Shown in pieces: positions 1,583 through 13,157 of a stretch of DNA of 14,743 nucleotides (position 1 is its first letter; every line of letters begins with the position of its first letter). The DNA is from an uncultured Rhodanobacteraceae bacterium (GTDB lineage: Bacteria > Pseudomonadota > Gammaproteobacteria > Xanthomonadales > Ahniellaceae), in contig CALMWD010000099.1 in NCBI GenBank assembly GCA_937873105.1, positions 1-14,743 on the forward strand, given 5' to 3'. Position numbers and translations under genes: made by a program. A model generated the notes under the pieces. That model ran no database searches. It worked only from the letters and a program-made list of their open reading frames with translations, and was not told where the DNA came from.

Positions 1583-2815
1583 TCAGATCGACCGGCGTGG
1601 CGGCACCAGCAAATTGCCGAACAGCAAACCCGCAACCAAGGCGATCAGGATCGCCAGCAGCGAAAACGCGGTATCGAGGCTGAGATAGACATCGCGCTCG
1701 AATGCGAAGAAAAGGCTGCGAAAACCCACCGAACCCGGCACCAGCAGAATGATGCCCGGAACACGCACCAATGCACCGGGACGCGAGCGCCAGCGCGCAT
1801 AGACATTGGCCGCGCTGCCCACCGCGATACCGCCGAGGAATACGCCGAACTCGGGGCCAGCCCAGGCACTGGCGCATTTCGTCGCCAGATAGCCGAGCCA
1901 TGCGGAAGCCATGACCAACGGATAATCGCGCTTCGACGCTTGGAACAACACGGCGAACGAATAGCTCGCCGCCACCAGCGCTACCCATTCCGCCCATTCC
2001 GGCACCGGCAATCCCTGTGCGGGCAGCGCGACGAGGCCGAATGCGCGCGCCAATTGCACCGCCGCGATGGTGCCGAGCGACAACTTCAACAGCGTCGCCG
2101 CCGCACCCATCAGTCGAACCGTGCCGGCGACCAGATGCTGGGTCGAGAGTTCGGTCACGGCGGTCGTCAATGTCAGCCCCGGCATCAGCACGATGATCGA
2201 GGCGATCAGGACCGAACGCACGTTCAGCGGCACCAACGACGACGCGATCAGCGACGCGAAAAACATGGCGAGGAACGCCGCAACGGCCTCGAACGAGGGC
2301 GCGAAATTCGACCGACGATCGGCCACCAGGGCCAGCAGGCCGATCAGCAGGCCGATGCTGCCCGCCGCGAGCACATCCGCCGAACTGCCCTTGAGCAAGG
2401 CGGCGACGGTGGCGCCGGCGATGCCGAAGCTGAGCACCTGCAAGCCCACGCCCTTCACCGACAAGCCGGTGCGCAGCGCGCGCAGTTCCGCCAATCCCTC
2501 GGTGATGCCGATCTGCTGCGCGAGCACGCGCTCGGCAATGGCATCGACTTCGCACAGGCGGCGCAGATTCACGTCGCCCGGATTCACGCGCATCACCATC
2601 GTCCTGCGCGGCAAGGCCAGTTCGCCGTCGTCCGGATCGACGAAGGACAGCGTGATCGACGTCGGCGTTGACAGGCTGGTCGGCAGCAGGCCGAGGCGCG
2701 CACTCACGCCGTCGATGGCGCGCTCCAGACGCGGCGCCGACGTGCCGTACTGATGCAGCCGTCGCGCCAGTTCCGCCACGAAGCGGACGCGCGCGTCGAA
2801 CTCGTCGGGACTCAT
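1583..2815 (-). CDS. ThrE-family (DUF1212/DUF3815) threonine/serine exporter-like membrane protein
   Basis: This 410-aa inner-membrane protein has the full two-part ThrE architecture. A soluble N-terminal region (about 1-120, starting FVAELARRLHQYGTSAPRLE) precedes roughly ten hydrophobic helices from residue 123 to 403. Family-type motifs are MPGLTLTTAVTELSTQHLVAG (from 211; Pro and Gly conserved) and PGIILLVPGSVGFRSL (353-368) in the C-terminal half. ThrE of Corynebacterium exports threonine and serine using the proton gradient; the substrate here is not shown. Its ATG overlaps the TGA of the upstream PqqD-like gene (ATGA at 2812-2815), so translation is probably coupled and the gene is last in the RiPP operon. 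That position makes export of a peptide product or of a substrate for the pathway conceivable, but this is inference. It could equally be an unrelated amino-acid exporter captured in the operon. Confidence 0.88.
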   Translation of the reverse strand: MSPDEFDARVRFVAELARRLHQYGTSAPRLERAIDGVSARLGLLPTSLSTPTSITLSFVDPDDGELALPRRTMVMRVNPGDVNLRRLCEVDAIAERVLAQQIGITEGLAELRALRTGLSVKGVGLQVLSFGIAGATVAALLKGSSADVLAAGSIGLLIGLLALVADRRSNFAPSFEAVAAFLAMFFASLIASSLVPLNVRSVLIASIIVLMPGLTLTTAVTELSTQHLVAGTVRLMGAAATLLKLSLGTIAAVQLARAFGLVALPAQGLPVPEWAEWVALVAASYSFAVLFQASKRDYPLVMASAWLGYLATKCASAWAGPEFGVFLGGIAVGSAANVYARWRSRPGALVRVPGIILLVPGSVGFRSLFFAFERDVYLSLDTAFSLLAILIALVAGLLFGNLLVPPRRSI

Positions 2816-3093
2816 GTCGCGACCGAGGTCCGCAACAGGCCCCGCGCGACCAGATCGGCGAGAAAGCGATCGAGGTCCGCACCGGCCCGATCCGCTTCGA
2901 CGCGATGCGTCGCGACCACGTCGGCCAGCAGCTCGTCACGGCGGGCACCGTTCCGGCATGCGCGAAGAATCAGGCTGGCGACCGGATTGGCGGCGAAGTA
3001 GCGACCGAGTGCCTCGTCGAGCAGGACCGCCTCGTCCAGGTCGAACTGGGCCAGCACATGCGGCGCGAGCAGGTAAGTGGTGTGGCGATTCAT
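2812..3093 (-). CDS. PqqD-like RiPP recognition protein (lasso B1 type)
   Basis: This 93-aa protein has the PqqD fold (RRE domain) that binds a RiPP leader peptide and presents it to the processing enzymes. Visible features are an N-terminal beta-strand region (YLLAPHVLAQFDLDEAVLLD), the family-typical YFAANPVASLIL helix (about 32-43), and a C-terminal winged-helix-like part with acidic helices ending DLDRFLADLVARGLL. Standalone lasso B1 proteins are usually 80-100 aa, so the length fits. The ATG at 3093 is preceded by AGGGA; a longer in-frame reading to 3273 would only overlap the kinase. It lies 37 nt after the kinase and overlaps the ThrE-like gene by 4 nt. Its expected ligand is the YxxPxLxxLG leader motif of the peptide encoded at 4030-4221. 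In canonical clusters the next gene is the B2 leader peptidase; none is present here. Confidence 0.85.
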   Translation of the reverse strand: MNRHTTYLLAPHVLAQFDLDEAVLLDEALGRYFAANPVASLILRACRNGARRDELLADVVATHRVEADRAGADLDRFLADLVARGLLRTSVAT

Positions 3094-3130
3094 CGGCGCG
3101 ACTGTCCCTGAAGCCGATGCCCGCCGCAAG

Positions 3131-4018
3131 TCACCACGCCGACAATCTGGCCAGCGCGGCCGCAACCTGCCCGGGAATCGCCGCTTCCGCACACTCCGGC
3201 CACGACATGCGCAGCGCCGGAACGCCGCGCGTGAATGCGGTGACGGCATCGAGATGCCAGCGCAGCAGCGCACGCGGAAACAGGCGCGCCGCCACCGAGT
3301 GCCGGATCAGCCGCAAACGCGTCTCGGCCGCAGACAATGGCTGCACACCCAAGGCGGCGGTACCGCGCTCGACGAACACGATTTGATCGATGCCGATGGC
3401 GCGATCGGCGCCCGACAGCGGCTGTGCCCACTTCAGTTGCGGAAAGCGCGGCAGCAACTGCGGCGTCGGCGCGATCCGGCAGGGCGCGATGTCGTCCACC
3501 AGCGTTTCCGCACCGCAAGCCGCCGCCAGGCGCGCAATGCTGGACTTGCCGCTGCCGGAAACACCGCAGAACAGGATCGTGCGTCCGCCATGGGCAATCG
3601 CCGAAGCATGCAATGCGAGCACGCCGTCCATCGCCAGCAGCAGCAGCAGTCCGGGTCCGAGCATCACTTCCGGACGTGCGGCGGACGGCACATCGGCATC
3701 GACGACAACCACGCGCCGATCGGCATCGACCTCCAGACCGCCCAGACCGGAGAACACCAGTCGTCGCCGTCGCCCCGACGATCGGACATCGACACGCCGC
3801 AATTCGCCGACGAGAAAGCCTTGCGTCGTCAGCTCGTCCTGCCAACTCGTCGGCGCATCCGCTGCCGCGACGACGGCCGATTCATCAGCCCGCCCGAATC
3901 CGTCAATCGCTTCGCTGCAAAACACGCGCACACCGGCGATACGGGTGGCGTAACACGCTTCGATTTGCCCGGCGACGGCAAGGACGAGGTCAGTCCGTGC
4001 GCACACCCCATCCCCCAA
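3131..4018 (-). CDS. HPr-kinase-like protein of lasso-type RiPP cluster
   Basis: About 295 aa, related to the HPr kinase/phosphorylase fold. Positions from the TTG start: an LHASA motif at 136-140, a Walker A P-loop GVSGSGKSS at 152-160 and an acidic LVDDIAP at 173-179 that matches the HprK Asp pair. The N-terminal 120 residues form a variable domain. Related kinases in lasso clusters (e.g. that of paeninodin) phosphorylate the hydroxyl of the C-terminal Ser of the precursor; here the precursor ends in Thr. No in-frame ATG exists near the 5' end. TTG at 4018 gives the longest reading, while GTG at 4006 is better placed behind a GGGGGA purine run, so the exact start is unsure. It begins 11 nt after the precursor stop and is followed after 37 nt by the B1 gene. 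Assignment as a RiPP kinase rests on motifs plus context; activity is not shown. Confidence 0.82.
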   Translation of the reverse strand: MGDGVCARTDLVLAVAGQIEACYATRIAGVRVFCSEAIDGFGRADESAVVAAADAPTSWQDELTTQGFLVGELRRVDVRSSGRRRRLVFSGLGGLEVDADRRVVVVDADVPSAARPEVMLGPGLLLLLAMDGVLALHASAIAHGGRTILFCGVSGSGKSSIARLAAACGAETLVDDIAPCRIAPTPQLLPRFPQLKWAQPLSGADRAIGIDQIVFVERGTAALGVQPLSAAETRLRLIRHSVAARLFPRALLRWHLDAVTAFTRGVPALRMSWPECAEAAIPGQVAAALARLSAW

Positions 4019-4029
4019 CCCGATGGATA

Positions 4030-4221
4030 TCAGGTGCGCTGCCCCTGTCCCGGACGGTTCATTGCCCGATGCGTACCCGAACCGCCCGAATCGCCGGTTC
4101 CCGGTGATGCGCCGAGCGTCAGGTCACGCACATCGCCCAGATCGCGCAACTCGGGAGCGACATAGCTCGCACGCGCATCGGTATCCGCAGGTTCAACGAT
4201 GTGTTCGACATGACCGGGCAT
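4030..4221 (-). CDS. Lasso-type RiPP precursor peptide
   Basis: This 63-aa peptide contains YVAPELRDLGDVRDLTLG (residues 20-37), an exact fit to the lasso leader signature YxxPxLxxLGxxxxLTxG. Tyr, Pro and Leu are the contacts for the B1 recognition protein, and the Thr (35) is the conserved residue two before the cleavage site. Cleavage after Leu36 would leave a 27-residue core beginning GASPGTGDSGGSG, with Gly at position 1 and Asp at position 8, so a Gly1-Asp8 macrolactam ring is predicted. The tail is polar and basic (THRAMN, then RPGQGQRT), with no aromatic residue, and ends in Thr. The ATG is 4 nt from the cyclase stop, and an ACAGG element inside the cyclase end serves as RBS. Being wedged between cyclase and kinase strongly supports a real gene. 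The mature structure is inferred; I recognise no named lasso peptide with this core. Confidence 0.85.
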   Translation of the reverse strand: MPGHVEHIVEPADTDARASYVAPELRDLGDVRDLTLGASPGTGDSGGSGTHRAMNRPGQGQRT

Positions 4222-4225
4222 GGCA

Positions 4226-6022
4226 CTACCTGTTTTCGGAAGAAAGCTGGCGGGATGCTAACACGGCCGGCCCTGCTGCCCAATGCGCCCGCCACCACAG
4301 CTCGAACGAGATCGCCAGCCAGATCGGCAGCAATTGCGCGTCCGATTCGGGGCTTGCGAGTGCCCGCATCAACGCATCGCGATCGATGTAGCGCGGCCAT
4401 CGCGCATCGGCATCCAGCAGCAGGCGTTCGACCTCGGCGCGATGACGATCGAGCACACCCCACTGGAACAGCGGCGTCAGGCTGCCGAGCTTGGGGCGCA
4501 GGCGAACCGACTCCGGCACGCGCCCGGACAACACCTGCCGACTCAACCATTTCGGCCCGCGCGCCGAATCCGAATAGTGCGCAGGCAGACCGAGAACGAA
4601 CGCCAGCAGCGCCGGGTCGCGATACGGAAAACGCAGTTCCAGACCATGCGCGTTCGCGTAGCGGCGCGCCAGTTCGGCGTCCTGCGCGCTGGCGCGTCCG
4701 AAGGCTTCCTCGACCCGCCGCGGCCAGCCGCGCCGTTCGGCGGTGTCCGGCAAGCGGTCCCTTGCGGTATCCGTCAACCAGTCCGGCACCCATGTGCGAC
4801 TCGGGCGCAGCCACGACAGCAGGCCGCGCACGCCCGGGTCATGCCGCAGCGCGAACCGCTGACGGGCCGTCTGGACAACCAACTCGGCGACGAAGGCAAG
4901 CATGCCGCGTTCGCGCACGAACGAGGCCGGCCAGTCGCGGCCATCGGCATAGATGTGATCGCCGAAATTGCCCGACAGCAGCACCGTGGCGCCTTCGGCA
5001 CGTGCCGCGGCGAACAGCGCCTGATTGAGGCGACGATACGGATTCGCCAGCGGTGCCTCGTCTTCCATCGGCCAGCTCGGCAGATCGGAGAGCGGTTCGT
5101 GGCTTCCGTCCGGCGCGCGCACATGACGCAACCGCAGTTGCGCAGCCGTCGCGGCGGCCAAGGCCGATTCGTCGCAATCGGGCAGATGCGGCACCGCCCA
5201 GCTCACCGCCAGCGAACGCGCCGGATCGAGACAGGAGGCGAGCAAGGTGGAGTCGATGCCGCCGCTCAGCATCAGCGCCGATGTCGCGGCGTCGGCACCG
5301 GCACGGGCCACTGCCTGCGCAACCGTATCGCGCCAGGCGTCTGCCGCCGCGTCGTCGCTGCGAAAGCGCAACGGCGACGACGGCAGCGCGGGCACAATGC
5401 GCGTTTGCCGCTCGCGACCATCGTCGATGATCAGCAGGCCGCCGGCCGGCAATTCGCGCACGCCGTGCATCCACGCCACGTCGTCCGGCGGCGCGCGCAG
5501 GGCGAAGAAATGCGCCATCGCCGTGTCGTCCGGTTGCAGGCGTTCGCCGCGCAGCGCCAGCAGCGCACTGCCGCGGCTCGACACGAACAGGCGGTCGCCC
5601 TCGCGCACGTAACGCAGGCCGCGCTCGCCGAGCGGGTCGCGGTACAGCACGACGCGACGCCGTGCCGGATCGAGCAGCACCAGCGCGAGGTCGGCGTCGA
5701 GGTCGTCGAACAGATGCACGTCGCGATCGGCGTAGGCGCGCAGGAGGGCTTCGGCATCGCCGCAGCCGTCGTCGATACGGTGACGCCGACGAAACGCGGC
5801 ACCATCACGCAGGCGGCCATCCAGTGCCAGCACGCATCCACGCCATTCGGCGACACCGGTGCCATGAAACGACCGCGCCACCCACCATCGCGCGGCAGGT
5901 ATCCGCAACTCGTCCGCACCGAACGGTGCGAAACCGCCGAGCGAACGGATACCCGCAGCCATGGCCTCATCGGACACGGTCGCCACGCCGGCCAACGCGA
6001 CGACGCCAAGCACGGCAGTCAT
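4226..6022 (-). CDS. Asparagine-synthase-like lasso peptide cyclase (C protein)
   Basis: This 598-aa member of the asparagine synthase B family should activate the Asp side chain of the precursor by adenylation and close the macrolactam with the core N-terminus. Residues 1-200 are a degenerate class II glutamine-amidotransferase domain. Position 2 is Thr, not the Cys nucleophile needed for glutaminase activity, as expected for lasso cyclases. The synthetase domain starts around 225 with the ATP pyrophosphatase loop LSGGIDST (252-259); further on is SGNFGDHIYADGRDW, the counterpart of the SGxGxDE region of asparagine synthetase. Length is typical (about 600). It is the first gene of the operon; the ATG at 6022 is 83 bp from the divergent ETF-QO start, and no strong promoter is evident on its own side. 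True asparagine synthetase is unlikely given the lost Cys2 and the adjacent precursor. Confidence 0.88.
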   Translation of the reverse strand: MTAVLGVVALAGVATVSDEAMAAGIRSLGGFAPFGADELRIPAARWWVARSFHGTGVAEWRGCVLALDGRLRDGAAFRRRHRIDDGCGDAEALLRAYADRDVHLFDDLDADLALVLLDPARRRVVLYRDPLGERGLRYVREGDRLFVSSRGSALLALRGERLQPDDTAMAHFFALRAPPDDVAWMHGVRELPAGGLLIIDDGRERQTRIVPALPSSPLRFRSDDAAADAWRDTVAQAVARAGADAATSALMLSGGIDSTLLASCLDPARSLAVSWAVPHLPDCDESALAAATAAQLRLRHVRAPDGSHEPLSDLPSWPMEDEAPLANPYRRLNQALFAAARAEGATVLLSGNFGDHIYADGRDWPASFVRERGMLAFVAELVVQTARQRFALRHDPGVRGLLSWLRPSRTWVPDWLTDTARDRLPDTAERRGWPRRVEEAFGRASAQDAELARRYANAHGLELRFPYRDPALLAFVLGLPAHYSDSARGPKWLSRQVLSGRVPESVRLRPKLGSLTPLFQWGVLDRHRAEVERLLLDADARWPRYIDRDALMRALASPESDAQLLPIWLAISFELWWRAHWAAGPAVLASRQLSSENR

Positions 6023-6105: not shown

Positions 6106-7704
6106 ATGAGCGAACGCGAAATCATGCAATACGACGTCTGCGTCGTCGGCGCCGGTCCGGCCGGGCTCGCGTTCGCGATCCGGCTGAAGCAACTCAAACC
6201 CGAAGCCAGCGTCTGCGTGATCGAGAAGGCCTCGACCGTCGGCGCCCATATCCTTTCGGGCGCGGTGATCGAAACCGGCCCGCTCGACCAGTTGCTGCCG
6301 GACTGGCGCAAGTCGCCGCCGCCGATCTGCGTCGACGTGGCCTCGGACGAGTTCTACCTGCTCGGTCAGAAGAAGCAGTGGAAGCTGCCGCTGCCGCCGC
6401 AAATGAACAACCACGGCAACGTCATCGTCTCGCTCGGCGCCTTGTGCGCCTGGTTGGCGCCGCAGGCGGAAGCGCTGGGCGTGGAGATTTTCCCCGGCTT
6501 CGCGGCCAGCGAGCCGGTGTTCGACGACAAGGGCGCAGTCTGTGGCGTGCGCATCGGCGACATGGGCGTGGCCAAGGACGGATCGCACAAGCCGAGCTAT
6601 GCGCAGGGCATCGACATCCATGCAGCGATCACCGTGTTCGCCGAAGGCGTGCGCGGCCACATCAGCAAGCAGCTGATCAAGCGCTACGAGCTCGACAAGT
6701 ACTGCGACCCGCAGACCTATTCGGTGGGTATGAAGGAACTGTGGCAGGTGCCCGCGGGCCGAGTAACGCCGGGGCGCGTGATCCACACCTTCGGCTGGCC
6801 CTCGGACAACGCCACCTACGGCGGCAGCTTCATCTATCACCTGGACCAGGACCGCATCGCCGTCGGCTACGTCTGCGGTCTCGACTACCAGGACCCGAAG
6901 CTGATGCCGTTCGAGCTGTTTCAGCAGCTCAAGCACCATCCGCTGATCCAGCCGATGCTAGAAGGCGGCACGATCCTGTCGGGCGGCGCGCGTGCGATTT
7001 CGGCGGGCGGCTTCCAGTCGCTGCCCCAGGTCGAGATGCCGGGCGCGATCCTGATCGGCGATGGCGCCGGCACCCTGAACGTGCCGAAGATCAAGGGCAC
7101 GCACCAGGCCATGCGCGGCGGCATCGTCGCGGCCGAGCACATCGCGCGTACCAACAGCGTGGCCGGCTTCGATGCGGCGCTGCGCGCATCGCCGGTGGTC
7201 GGCGAATTGAAGAAGGTGCGCAACATCAAGCCCGGTTTCCACGGGGGGTTGTGGATGGGCATGATCAATGCCGGCTGGGAGACCGTCACAGCGGGTCATT
7301 CGCCGTGGACGCTGCGCAATCATGCCGACCACGCGCAACTGAAGCGCGTGAACGAGATCGGCGACATCGACCGGCACTGGGTCGAGCGAACCCTGCCGCC
7401 ACGCGATCGCCTCGCTTCGGTGTATTTCGCCGCGACCGAGCACGACGAGGACCAGCCGGTGCACCTGCGCGTCGCCGATACCAACGTCTGCATCACGAAG
7501 TGTGCGGAAGAGTTCGGCAATCCGTGCACGAAGTTCTGTCCGGCCGGCGTCTACGAGATGGTTCAGGACGAGGCCGGAAAGCGCCTGCAGATCAATGCCG
7601 CGAATTGCGTGCACTGCAAGACCTGCGACATCAAGGACCCCTACCAGATCATCACCTGGGTGACGCCGGAAGGCGGCGCGGGGCCGAACTACCAGAATCT
7701 CTGA
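6106..7704 (+). CDS. etfD: Electron transfer flavoprotein-ubiquinone oxidoreductase
   Basis: This 532-aa enzyme passes electrons from reduced ETF (from acyl-CoA and other dehydrogenases) to ubiquinone at the inner membrane, using FAD and one 4Fe-4S cluster. The N-terminal FAD-binding Rossmann motif is VCVVGAGPAGLAFAIRL (11-27). Family-typical stretches follow (EKASTVGAHILSGAV; IGDGAGTLNVPKIKGTHQAM). The C-terminal ferredoxin-like part carries the cluster ligands: CPAG (Cys478) and CVHCKTCDIKDP (Cys501, 504, 507), with additional Cys at 466 and 474. Length is as expected. The ATG at 6106 (MSEREIMQYD) is chosen over in-frame ATG 6076 because the latter overlaps the -10 and lacks family-like residues. 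It is transcribed alone, divergent from the RiPP operon, and ends at a strong terminator; etfAB are not in the window. Confidence 0.95.
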   Translation: MSEREIMQYDVCVVGAGPAGLAFAIRLKQLKPEASVCVIEKASTVGAHILSGAVIETGPLDQLLPDWRKSPPPICVDVASDEFYLLGQKKQWKLPLPPQMNNHGNVIVSLGALCAWLAPQAEALGVEIFPGFAASEPVFDDKGAVCGVRIGDMGVAKDGSHKPSYAQGIDIHAAITVFAEGVRGHISKQLIKRYELDKYCDPQTYSVGMKELWQVPAGRVTPGRVIHTFGWPSDNATYGGSFIYHLDQDRIAVGYVCGLDYQDPKLMPFELFQQLKHHPLIQPMLEGGTILSGGARAISAGGFQSLPQVEMPGAILIGDGAGTLNVPKIKGTHQAMRGGIVAAEHIARTNSVAGFDAALRASPVVGELKKVRNIKPGFHGGLWMGMINAGWETVTAGHSPWTLRNHADHAQLKRVNEIGDIDRHWVERTLPPRDRLASVYFAATEHDEDQPVHLRVADTNVCITKCAEEFGNPCTKFCPAGVYEMVQDEAGKRLQINAANCVHCKTCDIKDPYQIITWVTPEGGAGPNYQNL

Positions 7705-7770: not shown

Positions 7771-10700
7771 TCAGCGAACCGGTTGTGCCGGGTCGCCGAG
7801 CAGGGTGGCCGCGTTCAGGATGTCGGCGTGCGTCGTGCCTTCGGTCGCCAACTGCATCTTCGCCAGGCGCAGGGCGTCGCCGATGCGCGTGCCGACCGAC
7901 AGTTCCGGATACAGCGCCGAACCGAGCGCTTCATGTGCGGACAGTTCGGTGAGGCTGCTCACGCCGATGACGCCGGCCGCGCCGTGGCCCGCCGTGTTCA
8001 GGAACTTGTGCGCGAGCGAGTTCGCGTTCGGCGACACGAAGTAGCTGTTCCAGCAACCCCACTGCACGACCAGATCGACCGGCGTACCGGTGGTGGAAGC
8101 GATATCGGTCGCGCTCAGGATCGCATTGGAACCCCACTGCAAGGCCGCCGAGTGGCCGACGTAGCTCACCATCTGCACGTTGCCGTTCAGCGCGCCCAGC
8201 AGCGCAGAGCGCGCACCGGCCGTGCCCAGATCGTCGGCATAGGCACGGCTGGTTGCCCAGGTATTCGGCAACTGCGCGGCGAAGGCATCGCTGATGCCGG
8301 CGAAGTCTTCCTCGCCGTCCGCCGCCTGTGCCACCAGCATCAGCTTGCGATCCGGCACGCTGCCGTTCACCGCCACGAGCTTCGCCGTCAGCGCCTGCAA
8401 TTCGGCGATGGAACGCACCGGCAAACGACCCAGCGCGAACTCCGGCGCACCATCGCGATCGGCATCGGCATAGAACGCATCGACCGGCGCGAAGGTGATG
8501 ACATCGCCAAGCTTCGTGTACTGCGTCGGGACCAGCGAGATCGAACCGGTGCCGAGGTTGTTCTTGTAGTCGTAGGTGTCGCCGCCGACCAGCAGCACGT
8601 ACTCAACGCCCATGGCCGGCACCGCCGCATCGAGGAAGCGCTGGATCGCCGCCGCTTCCGGCACCGAGTCGTTGAACTGGTCGTAGATCTGTTGCAGGTC
8701 AACCACGCGCACGTTCAGCCCGCGCGACTGCTGCAAGCCGACCAGTGGTTGCAGTTCGTCGAGGAACAGCGTCGGGCTGATGATCAGGTAGTCGGCCTGA
8801 CCGGCAATCAGCGGCGCAGCCGATTCCAGCGGTTCGATCTGCGGCGCGCGCAGGCCCGACACGTTCGACACCCAGTACGAGGAACCGGTGTCGGACGGCA
8901 GCAGGGCCGTACCGCCCGTGGCCTGCACGGAATGGGCGATCCACTGCCAGTCGTCGCCGCGACCGACATAGGCGACGATTTCGCCGTCGGCCAGTCCATC
9001 GACGCGGAATCCGGCCACGCTGTCCGGACCTTCAAAGCCGGACAGGAAGCTGTGCAGGATGTCGCCGTCGCCCGCGCCTTCGACGAAGAACGCATGGCCG
9101 CTTTGCAGTGCGTCGATGAACAGACGCTCGCCGTCCGCGACCGGCAGGCGCGGATAGCGCAGGTTGATGCGGTCGATGTAGGCCATGTCGAACTCGAAGC
9201 CGGTGTCGCCCGGCAGCACCACGCCGGCGTCGAGCTGGCCGGCACCGAACAGCGGCAGACGCAGGCGCACGCTGTGCGCAACGCTGCCGTCGAAGCGCTC
9301 GTCGGCCACGGTCTGGCCGTCGATTTGCAGCAGCGCATGGTGATCGGCTTCGCCGCCGTCGAAGTTGGTCAGACCGATCAGGTCGGCTTGCAGTTCGGCG
9401 ATGTCGCCGACATCGGTCGCGACCGCCGATACCGGCAGCGACACCGAACGGCTCACTGGCTGGTTCGCGTAGGCGAGCAGTTCGTCGGCATGCCACGGGT
9501 CGCCCGTCGGCGAGGAATGGTTGTACTTGTTGTCCGGCGCGTAGCGCGATTCCGCCCAGTACCAGGCCGAGGTTTCGGTATCGGCCACCCAGTTGTTGCG
9601 GTCGATGGCGACGACGCCGATCGCGTCGCCGCGCACCAGGTACGGGAACGCCTTGGTGTAAAGCGATTCGTGCGTGCCGGCGAGGAAGTCGATGTACGAG
9701 TTCGCGCCGAAGTTGCCGCTGTCCGGAACGATGCGGCGCGGCACGCCTTGGCCACGGAAGGTGACGGCGATCCGTTCGACCGGCACGCCTTCAAGGTGCA
9801 CGCCGGCCGCTGCAAGCTGCGTGGCCGTCACACGATGGAAGCCGGCCTGTTCGACCCAGAGCTTGCCGGCGTTCGACGAGGCCGTGCTGCGTGCCAGCGC
9901 CTTGAGTTGGGCGATGGCATTCGCGGTGTCGTCCCAGCGGAAGCGTTCGGCGGAACTGTCGATGCCGAAGTTCGCGCCCACTTCAAACGGGCCGTGTACG
10001 GCGCGCGCGCCGCTGCTCGAATGATCGACCAGGTAGAACTTGCCGGTCGCAGGCACCGTCGCAAGTTGCGTGGCGTAGCTGCTCGCTTCGGCGGTGTTGT
10101 TGCGCTGGCTCGCGATCATCGACGACACGGCCACGGGCACGAAGCGGCCGTCGGCACCGCGTTCTTCCACGGTGAAGCCGATGTTGTCGATTTCGCTGGC
10201 GGTGCCGAAGCGCAGGTCGAGCTTGCCTTCGACGATGCGCGAGCGCACCCACGACAGCGTGACGGGCAAGGTATTGGCCGGAATGCGATGGTCTTCCACT
10301 TCGCCGTCGCTGGCGAGGCCGACGGGCGACGGTGACGAGTCGCTCATGAAGGAGCTGTCGGTGGTGATGCGCAGGCGCAGGTAGGTGTCGCTGTTCAGGT
10401 TGGCACCGGGCAGGCCGGACCACACCAGCACACGCGTCACGTTCGTCGTGCCGTTCGGAATGTTGGCGGTGGTGAAGGTGGTGTCGCCCGAAGGTGCTGT
10501 GGTGAATCCGCCCAGACGCGGCAGGCTGCGTTCGTTGGCGTCGAGGAAGTCGCCGTCGTCGTTCATGTCGAGCCAGCCGACGAGCTGGGCGCCGGTGCCG
10601 GAATTGTTGGTCACGTTCACGGTGACGCAGTATTCGCCGGGCGCGGTCGAATAGGTGCCGCCCGACCAGGTGCATTGGTAATGCGGGTTGCCGCCGCCTC

Positions 10701-12075
10701 CGCCCACATAGGTCGGCAGCGTCAGCGAACCGTTTTCGTCGGCGCCGTCGCTGTCGGCGTTCGTGTCACCGATACCATCGCCTTCGCCATCAGGCATGGT
10801 GCCCATGTACACGTTGCGGTTGCCCAGCGTATGACGGGCACCGCCGTCGTTGAAGTTCGTGTCGTAGCTGTCCGGCGCATCGCCGAAATCGAAGCCGCAG
10901 AAGCTGACAGTACCGATGCCGACTAGCTGATTGCCGGAATTGTTGTTCGGCTGATCGCCCTGCGCATAGGTGACGCGCACGCGCCGAACCGGCTTGGTGA
11001 ACGTCCAAGTGGCGTTGCCATCGGTGCTGTTGTCGTCAACATTACTGTCGCCTTCCACCCAATCACCTGCGTAGCTCAACTGACTGTTGGCGAGCACCGA
11101 CTGACGCGGCACCTGAATGGTCATGGCGGTATCGTCAAAGCCCTCGACACGCATGTAGTCCTCGAACTGAGCTGAGGACGAGTCGGTGTCCAGCGTCGAG
11201 AAGCTCAATCCATGCACGGGCACGTCGAAGTTGAAGACCGCCCATTCCATGCCGTTGGGCTCGGGATTACCCGATGTCGAAAGGTTCATGTAGAACCGGT
11301 AATAGCCGCCGGTACTATTCCCGGTTTGACCGGTACTGGTGCGGAAACTGGGGTTTGAGCCGGTGCTGGTATCACCCGTGGCTTCCCCGCTCGTGGACGG
11401 CTGCGTCATCGTGATGCCGTTGATCGCACCGGTGGTGCTGAACGCAACGTTGTTGCCGTTGCTGCTCCAGGCGTAGGTGCTCTTGGTGCCGCAGGACGCC
11501 GGCGCGACTTCGGACTGATTGCGCAGCACCAAGCGCACGCTATTGAACGTGCCCACGTCGCTGTTCGCTGCATCGCAGACCGAGATGACCCAGTCGCCGT
11601 TGACCGGGTGATTCGTGTTGGCGTCGTCGAACGGGTTGGCGGTGAACTGCATGAGCCGCCGGTACCGTATCGCCTGCCCGGACGCATCGGCGTTGCCGTC
11701 GTCGGTACTCGTGGTGTCGTTGTTGGTGGACAGCATGATGCGCAGGGCGTCCCGGTTGCCGCCGGAGGCAGTGAGCACCGTGCGATTGAGTTCGCCCGCC
11801 TCGGGCGGGTCGACCTGGATGCTCAGGTCGCCGCGCCACGTGTGACTGACATCCACACCCACCGCGACCTGCGTGTTGCCGACGTTGAAGCTGTCCGGCA
11901 CGTTGATCGTGACCGCCGTGCAGGCGTTGTCGTTGATGGCGCCCGGGTTCGGTACGGCATCGTAGGTGTAGATCACCTGCGCCCGACCCACTTCCGGCAC
12001 GCACAGGGCCAGCAGGAAGATGGACAACAGCGCGGCCGTCGGTAGCACAAAGCGCGACCCAAGAAAGAACTGCAT
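7771..12075 (-). CDS. Secreted C25 (gingipain-type) cysteine peptidase with P and GEVED domains
   Basis: This 1434-aa exported protein begins with a Sec signal peptide (hydrophobic about 10-26, likely cut after GRA32). Residues 34-190 look like a proprotein-convertase P domain (HTWRGDLSIQV; NGDWVISVCDAA). A beta-rich segment (195-393) is followed by FGDAPDSY (397-404) and a GEVED domain (about 485-597: GWLDMNDDGDFLDANER, then DGEVEDHRI at 590-598). A short FN3-like module (LSWVRSRIVEGKLDLRFGTASE) leads into a C25-type prodomain and the caspase-like catalytic domain (about 1080-1434). Visible catalytic candidates are His1308 (VSYVGHSAALQWG) and Cys1341 (VVQWGCWNSYF). The end, LLGDPAQPVR, resembles the C25 terminus. 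No type IX sorting domain follows, so export is Sec then type II or another route. It is a single-gene unit with its own promoter. Clan CD peptidase is secure; substrate and secretion route are unknown. Confidence 0.9.
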   Translation of the reverse strand: MQFFLGSRFVLPTAALLSIFLLALCVPEVGRAQVIYTYDAVPNPGAINDNACTAVTINVPDSFNVGNTQVAVGVDVSHTWRGDLSIQVDPPEAGELNRTVLTASGGNRDALRIMLSTNNDTTSTDDGNADASGQAIRYRRLMQFTANPFDDANTNHPVNGDWVISVCDAANSDVGTFNSVRLVLRNQSEVAPASCGTKSTYAWSSNGNNVAFSTTGAINGITMTQPSTSGEATGDTSTGSNPSFRTSTGQTGNSTGGYYRFYMNLSTSGNPEPNGMEWAVFNFDVPVHGLSFSTLDTDSSSAQFEDYMRVEGFDDTAMTIQVPRQSVLANSQLSYAGDWVEGDSNVDDNSTDGNATWTFTKPVRRVRVTYAQGDQPNNNSGNQLVGIGTVSFCGFDFGDAPDSYDTNFNDGGARHTLGNRNVYMGTMPDGEGDGIGDTNADSDGADENGSLTLPTYVGGGGGNPHYQCTWSGGTYSTAPGEYCVTVNVTNNSGTGAQLVGWLDMNDDGDFLDANERSLPRLGGFTTAPSGDTTFTTANIPNGTTNVTRVLVWSGLPGANLNSDTYLRLRITTDSSFMSDSSPSPVGLASDGEVEDHRIPANTLPVTLSWVRSRIVEGKLDLRFGTASEIDNIGFTVEERGADGRFVPVAVSSMIASQRNNTAEASSYATQLATVPATGKFYLVDHSSSGARAVHGPFEVGANFGIDSSAERFRWDDTANAIAQLKALARSTASSNAGKLWVEQAGFHRVTATQLAAAGVHLEGVPVERIAVTFRGQGVPRRIVPDSGNFGANSYIDFLAGTHESLYTKAFPYLVRGDAIGVVAIDRNNWVADTETSAWYWAESRYAPDNKYNHSSPTGDPWHADELLAYANQPVSRSVSLPVSAVATDVGDIAELQADLIGLTNFDGGEADHHALLQIDGQTVADERFDGSVAHSVRLRLPLFGAGQLDAGVVLPGDTGFEFDMAYIDRINLRYPRLPVADGERLFIDALQSGHAFFVEGAGDGDILHSFLSGFEGPDSVAGFRVDGLADGEIVAYVGRGDDWQWIAHSVQATGGTALLPSDTGSSYWVSNVSGLRAPQIEPLESAAPLIAGQADYLIISPTLFLDELQPLVGLQQSRGLNVRVVDLQQIYDQFNDSVPEAAAIQRFLDAAVPAMGVEYVLLVGGDTYDYKNNLGTGSISLVPTQYTKLGDVITFAPVDAFYADADRDGAPEFALGRLPVRSIAELQALTAKLVAVNGSVPDRKLMLVAQAADGEEDFAGISDAFAAQLPNTWATSRAYADDLGTAGARSALLGALNGNVQMVSYVGHSAALQWGSNAILSATDIASTTGTPVDLVVQWGCWNSYFVSPNANSLAHKFLNTAGHGAAGVIGVSSLTELSAHEALGSALYPELSVGTRIGDALRLAKMQLATEGTTHADILNAATLLGDPAQPVR

Positions 12076-12281: not shown

Positions 12282-13157
12282 ATGCCCCGCATCGCCCTCG
12301 TCACCGCCCGTGAAGCCGAGTCGCTGGACGAAGACCTGCCGCCGCTGATCGACGCCTTCGCGGGCGAGGCGGTGGCGGTGTGCTGGGACGACGCGGCCGT
12401 GGACTGGTTGCGTTTCGACCTGGTCCTGCTGCGTTCGGCCTGGGACTACGTGCCGCGGCTGGCCGAATTCCTGGCCTGGTGCGAACGCGTGGCGGCGCAA
12501 ACGCGGCTGCTGAACCCGCCGGCCCTGGTGCGCTGGAACACCGACAAGCACTACCTGTCCGATCTCGCCGCCCGCGGCCTCGCGACCGTGCCCAGCCATT
12601 TCCTCGAACCGGGCCGGCATGTGGCCGATGACCTGTAGGACCTCGTCGCGGCCTTGCCCAGCGAGGAATTCGTCGTGAAACCCGCGGTCGGGGCCGGGTC
12701 GAAGGACGCGCAACGCTACCGGCGCCGGCAGATCCAGACCGCGATGCGGCATGCGGACGTGCTGCTTCGGGACGGCCGCAGCGTCCTGGTCCAGCCGTAT
12801 CTCGACCAGGTCGATACGGCCGGCGAAACCGCGCTGATGTTCTTCGACGGCGAGTTCAGCCATGCCATCCGCAAGGGGCCGTTGCTGCGCCTCGACGAGG
12901 GCCCGACCGAGAAGCTGTTCGCGCCCGAGGAGATCACCGCGCGCATGCCGACGCCGGAGGAGCAGGCGCTGGCGACGCGCGTGGTCGCGGCCATCCCCGG
13001 CGGCGCGCCGCTGTATGCCCGCGTCGACCTGCTGCGCGCGGCCGACGGTTCGCCCTGCGTGCTGGAGCTGGAACTGACCGAACCCTCGCTGTTCTTCCCG
13101 TTCGGTCCGGGCTCGGCCGAGCGTTATGCGGCGGCGGCGCGGAAACGACTGGGTTGA
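12282..13157 (+). pseudogene. ATP-grasp ligase gene interrupted by in-frame amber codon
   Basis: Two consecutive open segments in the same frame (12282-12638, 118 aa, and 12639-13157) together encode an ATP-grasp protein of about 290 residues, split by TAG at 12636-12638 (codon 119). The N-terminal part shows the family-typical LRSAWDYVPRLAEFLAW and NPPALVRWNTDKHYLSDLA, resembling the DcsG-like (cycloserine-cluster) and RimK/glutathione-synthase-like ligases. The C-terminal part holds FVVKPAVGAGSKDAQRY (ATP-binding lysine), VQPYLDQVDTAGE and the Mg-binding YARVDLL...CVLELELTEPSLFFP. Such enzymes join a carboxylate to an amine via acyl phosphate; the substrate here is unknown. Everything past the stop stays in frame with intact motifs, so the change is recent, a sequencing error, or read through. 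DDL-TAG-DL would be explained by one substitution, for example from GAG. Confidence 0.8.

Follow-up and report, generated by a model that had tools for sequence, protein, structure and literature searches.

A 14,743-nucleotide stretch of DNA from an uncultured Rhodanobacteraceae bacterium (contig CALMWD010000099.1 of assembly GCA_937873105.1; 'the window') contains four adjacent minus-strand genes which, judging from their sequences, very probably form an operon that turns a short peptide into a ring. We regard the locus as a probable lasso-type pathway for a ribosomally synthesized and post-translationally modified peptide (RiPP), with a cyclase from a distinct clade, a B2 peptidase supplied from elsewhere in the genome and a role at the cell surface that would involve a neighbouring protease of family C25. 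The genes, the fixed residues of the precursor core, the placement of the cyclases in a separate clade, the B genes that are unlinked in relatives and the linkage to C25 are observed in the genomes compared. The window corresponds to contig C99 of genome G000 in our numbering, an assembly that is 67% complete. The operon comprises the following features:

4226-6022, minus strand: C, predicted macrolactam synthetase of the Asn_synthase fold, resembling lasso cyclases and without the Cys2 nucleophile (PF00733, SGGIDS, clade)
4030-4221, minus strand: A, whole precursor of 63 residues (open reading frame, ORF; NF033521)
4114-4221, minus strand: leader part of A, 36 residues, with Tyr-17, Pro-14, Leu-12 and Thr-2 (NF033521, alignment)
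4033-4113, minus strand: predicted core of A, GASPGTGDSGGSGTHRAMNRPGQGQRT, with a predicted Gly1-Asp8 ring (alignment; cleavage site and ring putative)
3131-4018, minus strand: K, HPr-kinase-like P-loop protein, predicted to phosphorylate the precursor peptide (sub-threshold TIGR04352, invariant residues)
2812-3093, minus strand: B1, PqqD-like protein for leader recognition (RiPP recognition element, RRE; PF05402); the likely start, read from the sequence, is the ATG at 3093

The tight spacing of these four genes had been described in the original prediction, made from the window alone, and is present.

Precursor and cyclase

Gene A contains YVAPELRDLGDVRDLTLG and scores 26.4 bits with NF033521, the NCBIfam lasso leader domain (cut-off 19), which confirms the predicted 63-residue precursor with a lasso-type leader. 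Three of 10 other precursors reach 19 bits with this model (one exactly), four lie at 16-18.8 bits and three give no match. We aligned 27 precursor rows, representing 25 distinct cores and 16 genera. The rows were found with an A profile built from part of them, so that their conservation is somewhat overstated; a weak match (L125, genome G437) which departed from the core pattern was excluded. In the leader, position -17 is Tyr in 26 rows (once Trp), position -14 is Pro in all, with a shift of one residue towards the core in five rows, and position -2 is Thr in 26. In the core, Gly1 and Ser9 are invariant and position 8 is always acidic (Asp in 20 rows, Glu in seven). Ser or Thr at position 3 and Gly10 each occur in 26 rows, and Gly5 in 25. 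The tails vary in sequence and length, the cores being 17-37 residues long. Conservation of the precursor had been proposed as a check on the locus; A-type precursors stand beside C in loci of all 16 genera, with core positions 1, 8 and 9 fixed throughout. Since A-type ORFs recur beside C in other genera, the operon is more than a chance arrangement.

The first residue of lasso cores is usually Gly. The rows with Glu8 comprise the clade of L025, L121, L122 and L124 as well as L123, L088 and one of the two L084 precursors. Asp and Glu have thus been exchanged more than once, as expected for an acid whose side chain is used. The fixed residues fit a putative Gly1-Asp8/Glu8 macrolactam; according to the available portion of PMC10368454, the isopeptide ring of lasso peptides uses Asp or Glu at core positions 7-9. 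At L084, two different precursors (1-177 and 1892-2524) flank one cyclase, with cores beginning GVSRGALESG (Glu8) and GGSVGRADSG (Asp8).

C scores 123.3 bits with PF00733 (cut-off 21) and has an intact SGGIDS motif; S.G.DS and KW..R are invariant across an alignment of 10 rows. An N-terminal MCG is absent from the window protein, in agreement with the predicted lack of the Cys2 nucleophile, and MC(G/A) occurs in none of 32 family rows, at least two of which are N-terminally truncated. The family is defined by a score of at least 222 bits with a profile of ten cyclases and has at least 42 loci in at least 39 of 398 genomes of the order, scoring up to the three best candidates per genome. A protein of G654 (218.5 bits) was dropped, as its N-terminus, VCGIAG, is of the AsnB type. 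Used as a single query, the window cyclase gave matches in 14 of the 398 order genomes at E 1e-40 and in two of 369 genomes of the class at 1e-30, G000 being included in both counts.

A maximum likelihood tree was computed from 49 cyclase rows (two partial sequences of 51 were left out). A split supported at 100/97 has 30 family cyclases on one side, while 13 AsnB-type rows, E. coli AsnB among them, group in a clade of their own (100/100). A third, open group (86/95) unites an annotated paeninodin-family cyclase, from Priestia, with four cyclases encoded at other loci that have B1 and B2 genes, and cyclase L184 stands alone on the lasso-locus side. Grouping with true asparagine synthetases had been named as an outcome that would overturn the prediction; the split places the family elsewhere. 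Provisionally, the family cyclases appear as a clade of their own, distinct both from AsnB and from a small reference set of five lasso-locus cyclases.

At several cyclase loci, among them L024, L028 and L030 (genus g283), no A match was found beside C. Genomes with a family cyclase but no recognized precursor beside it (L024, L028, L030, L226) carry C25 proteases. At the first three of these loci, the cyclase follows cell-wall-like genes (RodA/MltB/RlpA-like, by eye).

Kinase and dispersed B genes

For K, the weakest of the four genes, the prediction of an HprK-like P-loop protein held in part. The Ser-Gly-Lys of the Walker A motif, a preceding H.S and a following DD are invariant in eight aligned rows (the window and seven relatives), but every profile match is below threshold. 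No precursor among the 27 ends in Ser and four, including that of the window, end in Thr, which speaks against a C-terminal Ser as kinase site as in paeninodin. The Ser or Thr at core position 3 in 26 rows agrees by analogy with the mode of BsfK from the Bradymonas bsf cluster, which phosphorylates Ser3, accepts Thr3 and is helped by BsfB1 (PMC10368454, available portion).

The PqqD-like nature of B1 is borne out by 49.7 bits with PF05402 (cut-off 23.4). In a structure search with a model of B1, the top matches were those of the lasso B1 protein TbiB1 (5v1v/5v1u), though insignificant (E 0.33, probability 0.97).

G000 and G433 each carry B1. In all nine other genomes of our first set of 11, PF13471, the B2 family, gave at least 40 bits (the match in G409 has one internal stop). 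Among 16 further genomes, 13 had at least 48 bits, G423 and G654 had only weak matches and G526 had none; a PqqD match was present in 13 of the 16. The order C-A-K-B2-B1 is complete in G380, G386, G371, G377, G378, G381, G398 and G390. Elsewhere the genes are dispersed. In G370 (two contigs, 100% complete), A-C-K, B2 and B1 are located at 5.78, 4.56 and 2.01 Mb, respectively, B2 being the sole PF13471 match over cut-off. G405 has A-C-K on one contig and B1-B2 on another; both genomes contain a single PqqD match. The unlinked B2 proteins of G370 and G405 pass the NCBIfam model lasso_biosyn_B2 with 58.2 and 75.3 bits (cut-off 33). Three A-C loci and a single K-B1-B2 island are present in G412. 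In G401 (one contig) B2 is beside C, and the stronger of its two PqqD matches lies at a distance of about 258 kb. The smallest cassette is A plus C, and B1 and B2 are located away from A-C in several relatives.

The B1-B2 island of G405 (L193, C11, 275-2396) has a nucleotidyltransferase-like gene and an ATP-binding cassette (ABC) transporter, recognized by eye, and no A or C match. The K-B1-B2 island of G412 adjoins what appears by eye to be the beginning of a further window-type C25 protein, truncated where the contig ends.

Genome mining for lasso peptides usually looks for compact A-B-C(-D) clusters. Because B1 and B2 are often on another contig, and lie more than 1 Mb away in one two-contig genome, cluster-based mining may miss such loci or call them incomplete.

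We infer the chemical steps, export and contact with the protease as follows. B1 would bind the leader of A (Tyr-17, Pro-14, Leu-12), and K probably phosphorylates core Ser3 (Ser9 less likely) before the leader is removed. A B2 peptidase whose gene lies elsewhere in the genome would cut after Leu-1, next to Thr-2, and C would adenylate the Asp8 side chain and join it to the freed amino group of Gly1. The expected product is an 8-residue macrolactam with a 19-residue tail, which may or may not be threaded and which probably acts on the cell surface in concert with the C25 protease encoded nearby. Cleavage of the leader by the C25 protease instead of B2 was rejected as the main idea: the protease looks secreted (signal-like N-terminus, by eye), a free core must be available in the compartment that contains ATP and C, and most relatives searched have B2 genes.

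Linkage to C25 proteases and alternative readings

The C25 gene lies 1.8 kb from C, with a host gene in between:

7771-12075, minus strand: giant secreted-looking protein of 1434 residues with a C-terminal Peptidase_C25 domain (7786-8790; PF01364, 200.1 bits)
6106-7704, plus strand: electron transfer flavoprotein-ubiquinone oxidoreductase (ETF-QO), between the C25 gene and C (recognized by eye)

By its sequence, the large protein is a member of peptidase family C25 with the predicted active-site dyad. Of 48 aligned C25 rows, 45 have the catalytic His and Cys and three have gaps there; a few genes are counted twice. With the PorU model NF033707 the window protein scores 105.5 bits (cut-off 420). 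All seven large neighbours of A-C pairs (L020, L021, L029, L084, L085, L087, L088) contain PF01364; one other neighbour each in L022, L023, L025, L026 and L028 does not.

Among the 398 order genomes, PF01364 was detected in at least 73, as up to the four best candidates per genome were scored: at least 38 of the 39 with the cyclase family (not G437) and at least 35 of the 359 others. Fisher's test gives p 1.5e-31 for this co-occurrence, a value that ignores kinship and is inflated by large groups without the family. A C25 gene lies within 7 kb of the cyclase on one contig at 16 of 42 loci, from 13 genomes. From genome size and C25 number, 0.52 such loci are expected by chance, with a maximum of six over 200,000 simulations. 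At 13 of the 16 linked loci, C25 directly adjoins A or C. At nine it is in series on the same strand (G380, the second locus of G430, three loci of G412, G389, G394, G490, G536), in G394 with A only, C being on the opposite strand. The spacing between A and C25 in G412 is a gap of 1-2 nucleotides at two loci and a 4-nucleotide overlap at the third; it is 8 or 11 nucleotides in G490, depending on the start codon, and C and C25 of G430 overlap by 4 nucleotides (these ORF coordinates use mechanically assigned starts). Contig C33 of G430 carries three giant C25 genes in about 22 kb (L127 4285-12189 and 12339-17600; L029 11425-17655), beside two A-C pairs.

Several results count against a complete lasso pathway in the window. 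No NCBIfam model reaches its cut-off with C, the two lasso-cyclase models that match it falling far short (NF033535, 112.7 of 525 bits; NF033561, 57.7 of 300), and curated models also give scores below cut-off for K (HprK_rel_A TIGR04352, 19.6 bits; TIGR04355, 16 bits; cut-off 200) and, with the lasso-specific NF033530, for B1 (49.4 of 70). A single-sequence structure model of K was too poor to search (predicted local distance difference test, pLDDT, 37.8), and the core of the window is Gly-rich with no obvious bulky plug. With PF13471 and our own profile, no B2 was found in the window or in the whole G000 assembly, nor with our own profile in G433 (86% complete), where one PF13471 match (31.8 bits, cut-off 26) lies in a 478-residue frame taken for another transglutaminase-like protein. 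Both assemblies are incomplete; for want of a B2, the completeness of the window's own pathway is not established. The locus appears from its sequence to work like a lasso pathway, and the prediction of a lasso or lasso-like RiPP locus is supported, with B2 and D absent from the operon and the cyclase outside the lasso-locus cyclases sampled. Membership of the lasso class, which turns on a threaded product, is not proven, as no B2 was found in the incomplete assemblies and C and K score below the curated cut-offs. The reading of C as a normal asparagine synthetase that has a small ORF next to it by chance has practically no weight: among NCBIfam models, C scores best with TIGR01536, asparagine synthase (128.7 bits, cut-off 267), but Cys2 is lacking, the clade is separate and the precursor is conserved. 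Decay of the cluster in the window species, with B2 lost and no mature product, would explain why B2 is absent between K and B1, its place in G380 and seven order relatives, and found in neither G000 nor G433. It is improbable, however, given intact remaining ORFs, a cyclase in G433 that is 100% identical to that of the window, the incomplete assemblies, and a B2 that is distant in G370 and on another contig in G405. We also think it rather unlikely that the same Gly1-Asp8/Glu8 ring belongs to a branched cyclic peptide without threading. Cores of 17-37 residues, rich in Gly, Ser and Pro around the ring, and the distinct cyclase clade are compatible with such a product, and the related bsf cluster gave no detected mature lasso peptide in several expression hosts (PMC10368454, available portion); the leader, Thr-2 and the B1/B2 logic, however, are of the lasso-pathway type, and there is nothing in the sequence against threading.

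The C25 linkage might also have arisen as a by-product where genes for surface proteins cluster in islands, without any functional tie, which we judge a real if minority possibility. The 16 linked loci cannot be counted as independent: G412 contributes three and G430 two, and the same arrangement, with the host gene ETF-QO between C25 and the cluster, recurs in the window, G433 and G405. The other 26 of the 42 cyclase loci are unlinked to C25, some contigs being too short to tell (G409, G377, G426). At 20 fetched C25 loci not near C, profiles for A, C, K, B1 and B2 gave no match even at E 10, a rescan that included one A as positive control; the idea of an A-like gene beside every C25 is thereby refuted. 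A by-product would, however, hardly be expected to leave C25 directly beside A or C at 13 linked loci, in series on one strand at nine and, at five of these, with gaps of 1-11 nucleotides or 4-nucleotide overlaps. Moreover, none of 24 other Asn_synthase homologues of C25-bearing genomes, hand-picked as controls among the matches listed, lies within 7 kb of C25.

A functional tie between the lasso-type locus and C25 could take the form of a two-part surface system, which we put forward tentatively, at somewhat less than even confidence. In such a system, lasso-type macrolactams would be dedicated partners (inhibitor, activator, propeptide or substrate) of giant secreted gingipain/PorU-like C25 proteases rather than free antibiotics, and would be made by dispersed enzymes serving several precursors in trans. 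The C25 partnership would, if true, be the new element. A functional tie would give RiPP macrolactams a cellular role in the control of a surface protease and suggest a use for the giant C25 proteins of these bacteria, in which we know of no type IX secretion system (T9SS).

Known systems and neighbouring genes

The locus resembles the Bradymonadales bsf clusters, which as described in the available portion of PMC10368454 comprise A, B1, B2, C and K and have a YxxPxL leader motif at -17 to -12. The predicted bsf ring is likewise Gly1-Asp8, and the Ser3/Thr3 kinase site fits 26 of our 27 rows. The bsf precursor, compared by its description, has Ile-2 whereas Thr-2 predominates here (26 of 27 rows), and the window locus differs in lacking B2 and D and in its C25 neighbour. 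HPr-kinase homologues also occur in paeninodin-type and Sphingobium yanoikuyae lasso clusters, but these kinases modify a C-terminal Ser (PMC8498205, available portion), which ends none of our 27 precursors, and the paeninodin-family cyclase of Priestia falls outside the family clade. The C25 domain with its His/Cys dyad is shared with gingipains and the T9SS sortase PorU; different N-terminal domains, and linkage to genes for a RiPP precursor and a cyclase of the Asn_synthase type, set the proteins described here apart. An enzyme encoded elsewhere in the genome is known from the citrulassin lasso pathway (PMC12971885, available portion), where it is a tailoring deiminase, whereas here the core pair B1 and B2 is concerned. 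In the portions of papers available, the unlinked lasso genes encountered were tailoring or transporter genes, not B genes. In the open PubMed Central literature searched, we found no description of the cyclase clade, the C25 link or unlinked lasso B genes, though subscription journals and further open papers may hold one, and no mention of the core sequences.

One further gene adjoins the operon:

1583-2815, minus strand: gene of the ThrE-like threonine/serine exporter family (PF06738, 167.4 bits)

It overlaps the end of B1 by 4 nucleotides, and its membership in the pathway is uncertain. Among 14 loci searched, a homologue stands after the cluster in three, those of G433, G405 and G380, and none was found in the remaining 11, so that ThrE is a weak candidate for a family-wide exporter. 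No ABC transporter was detected among the ten window ORFs scanned with profiles, of which that of ETF-QO was translated in an incorrect frame. ETF-QO is a host gene outside the pathway; the copy adjoining C in G370 matches PF05187 and PF21162.

At 12282-13157 on the plus strand there is an ATP-grasp-like gene resembling the D-cycloserine synthetase DcsG (its first piece scores 140.8 bits with NF058666, cut-off 360). It is seen as two ORFs (12282-12638 and 12654-13157), which may reflect an interrupted gene or an assembly error. A small protein recognized by eye as H-NS family nucleoid-like is encoded at 1195-1521 on the plus strand, and a similar ORF is located near the cluster in L021.

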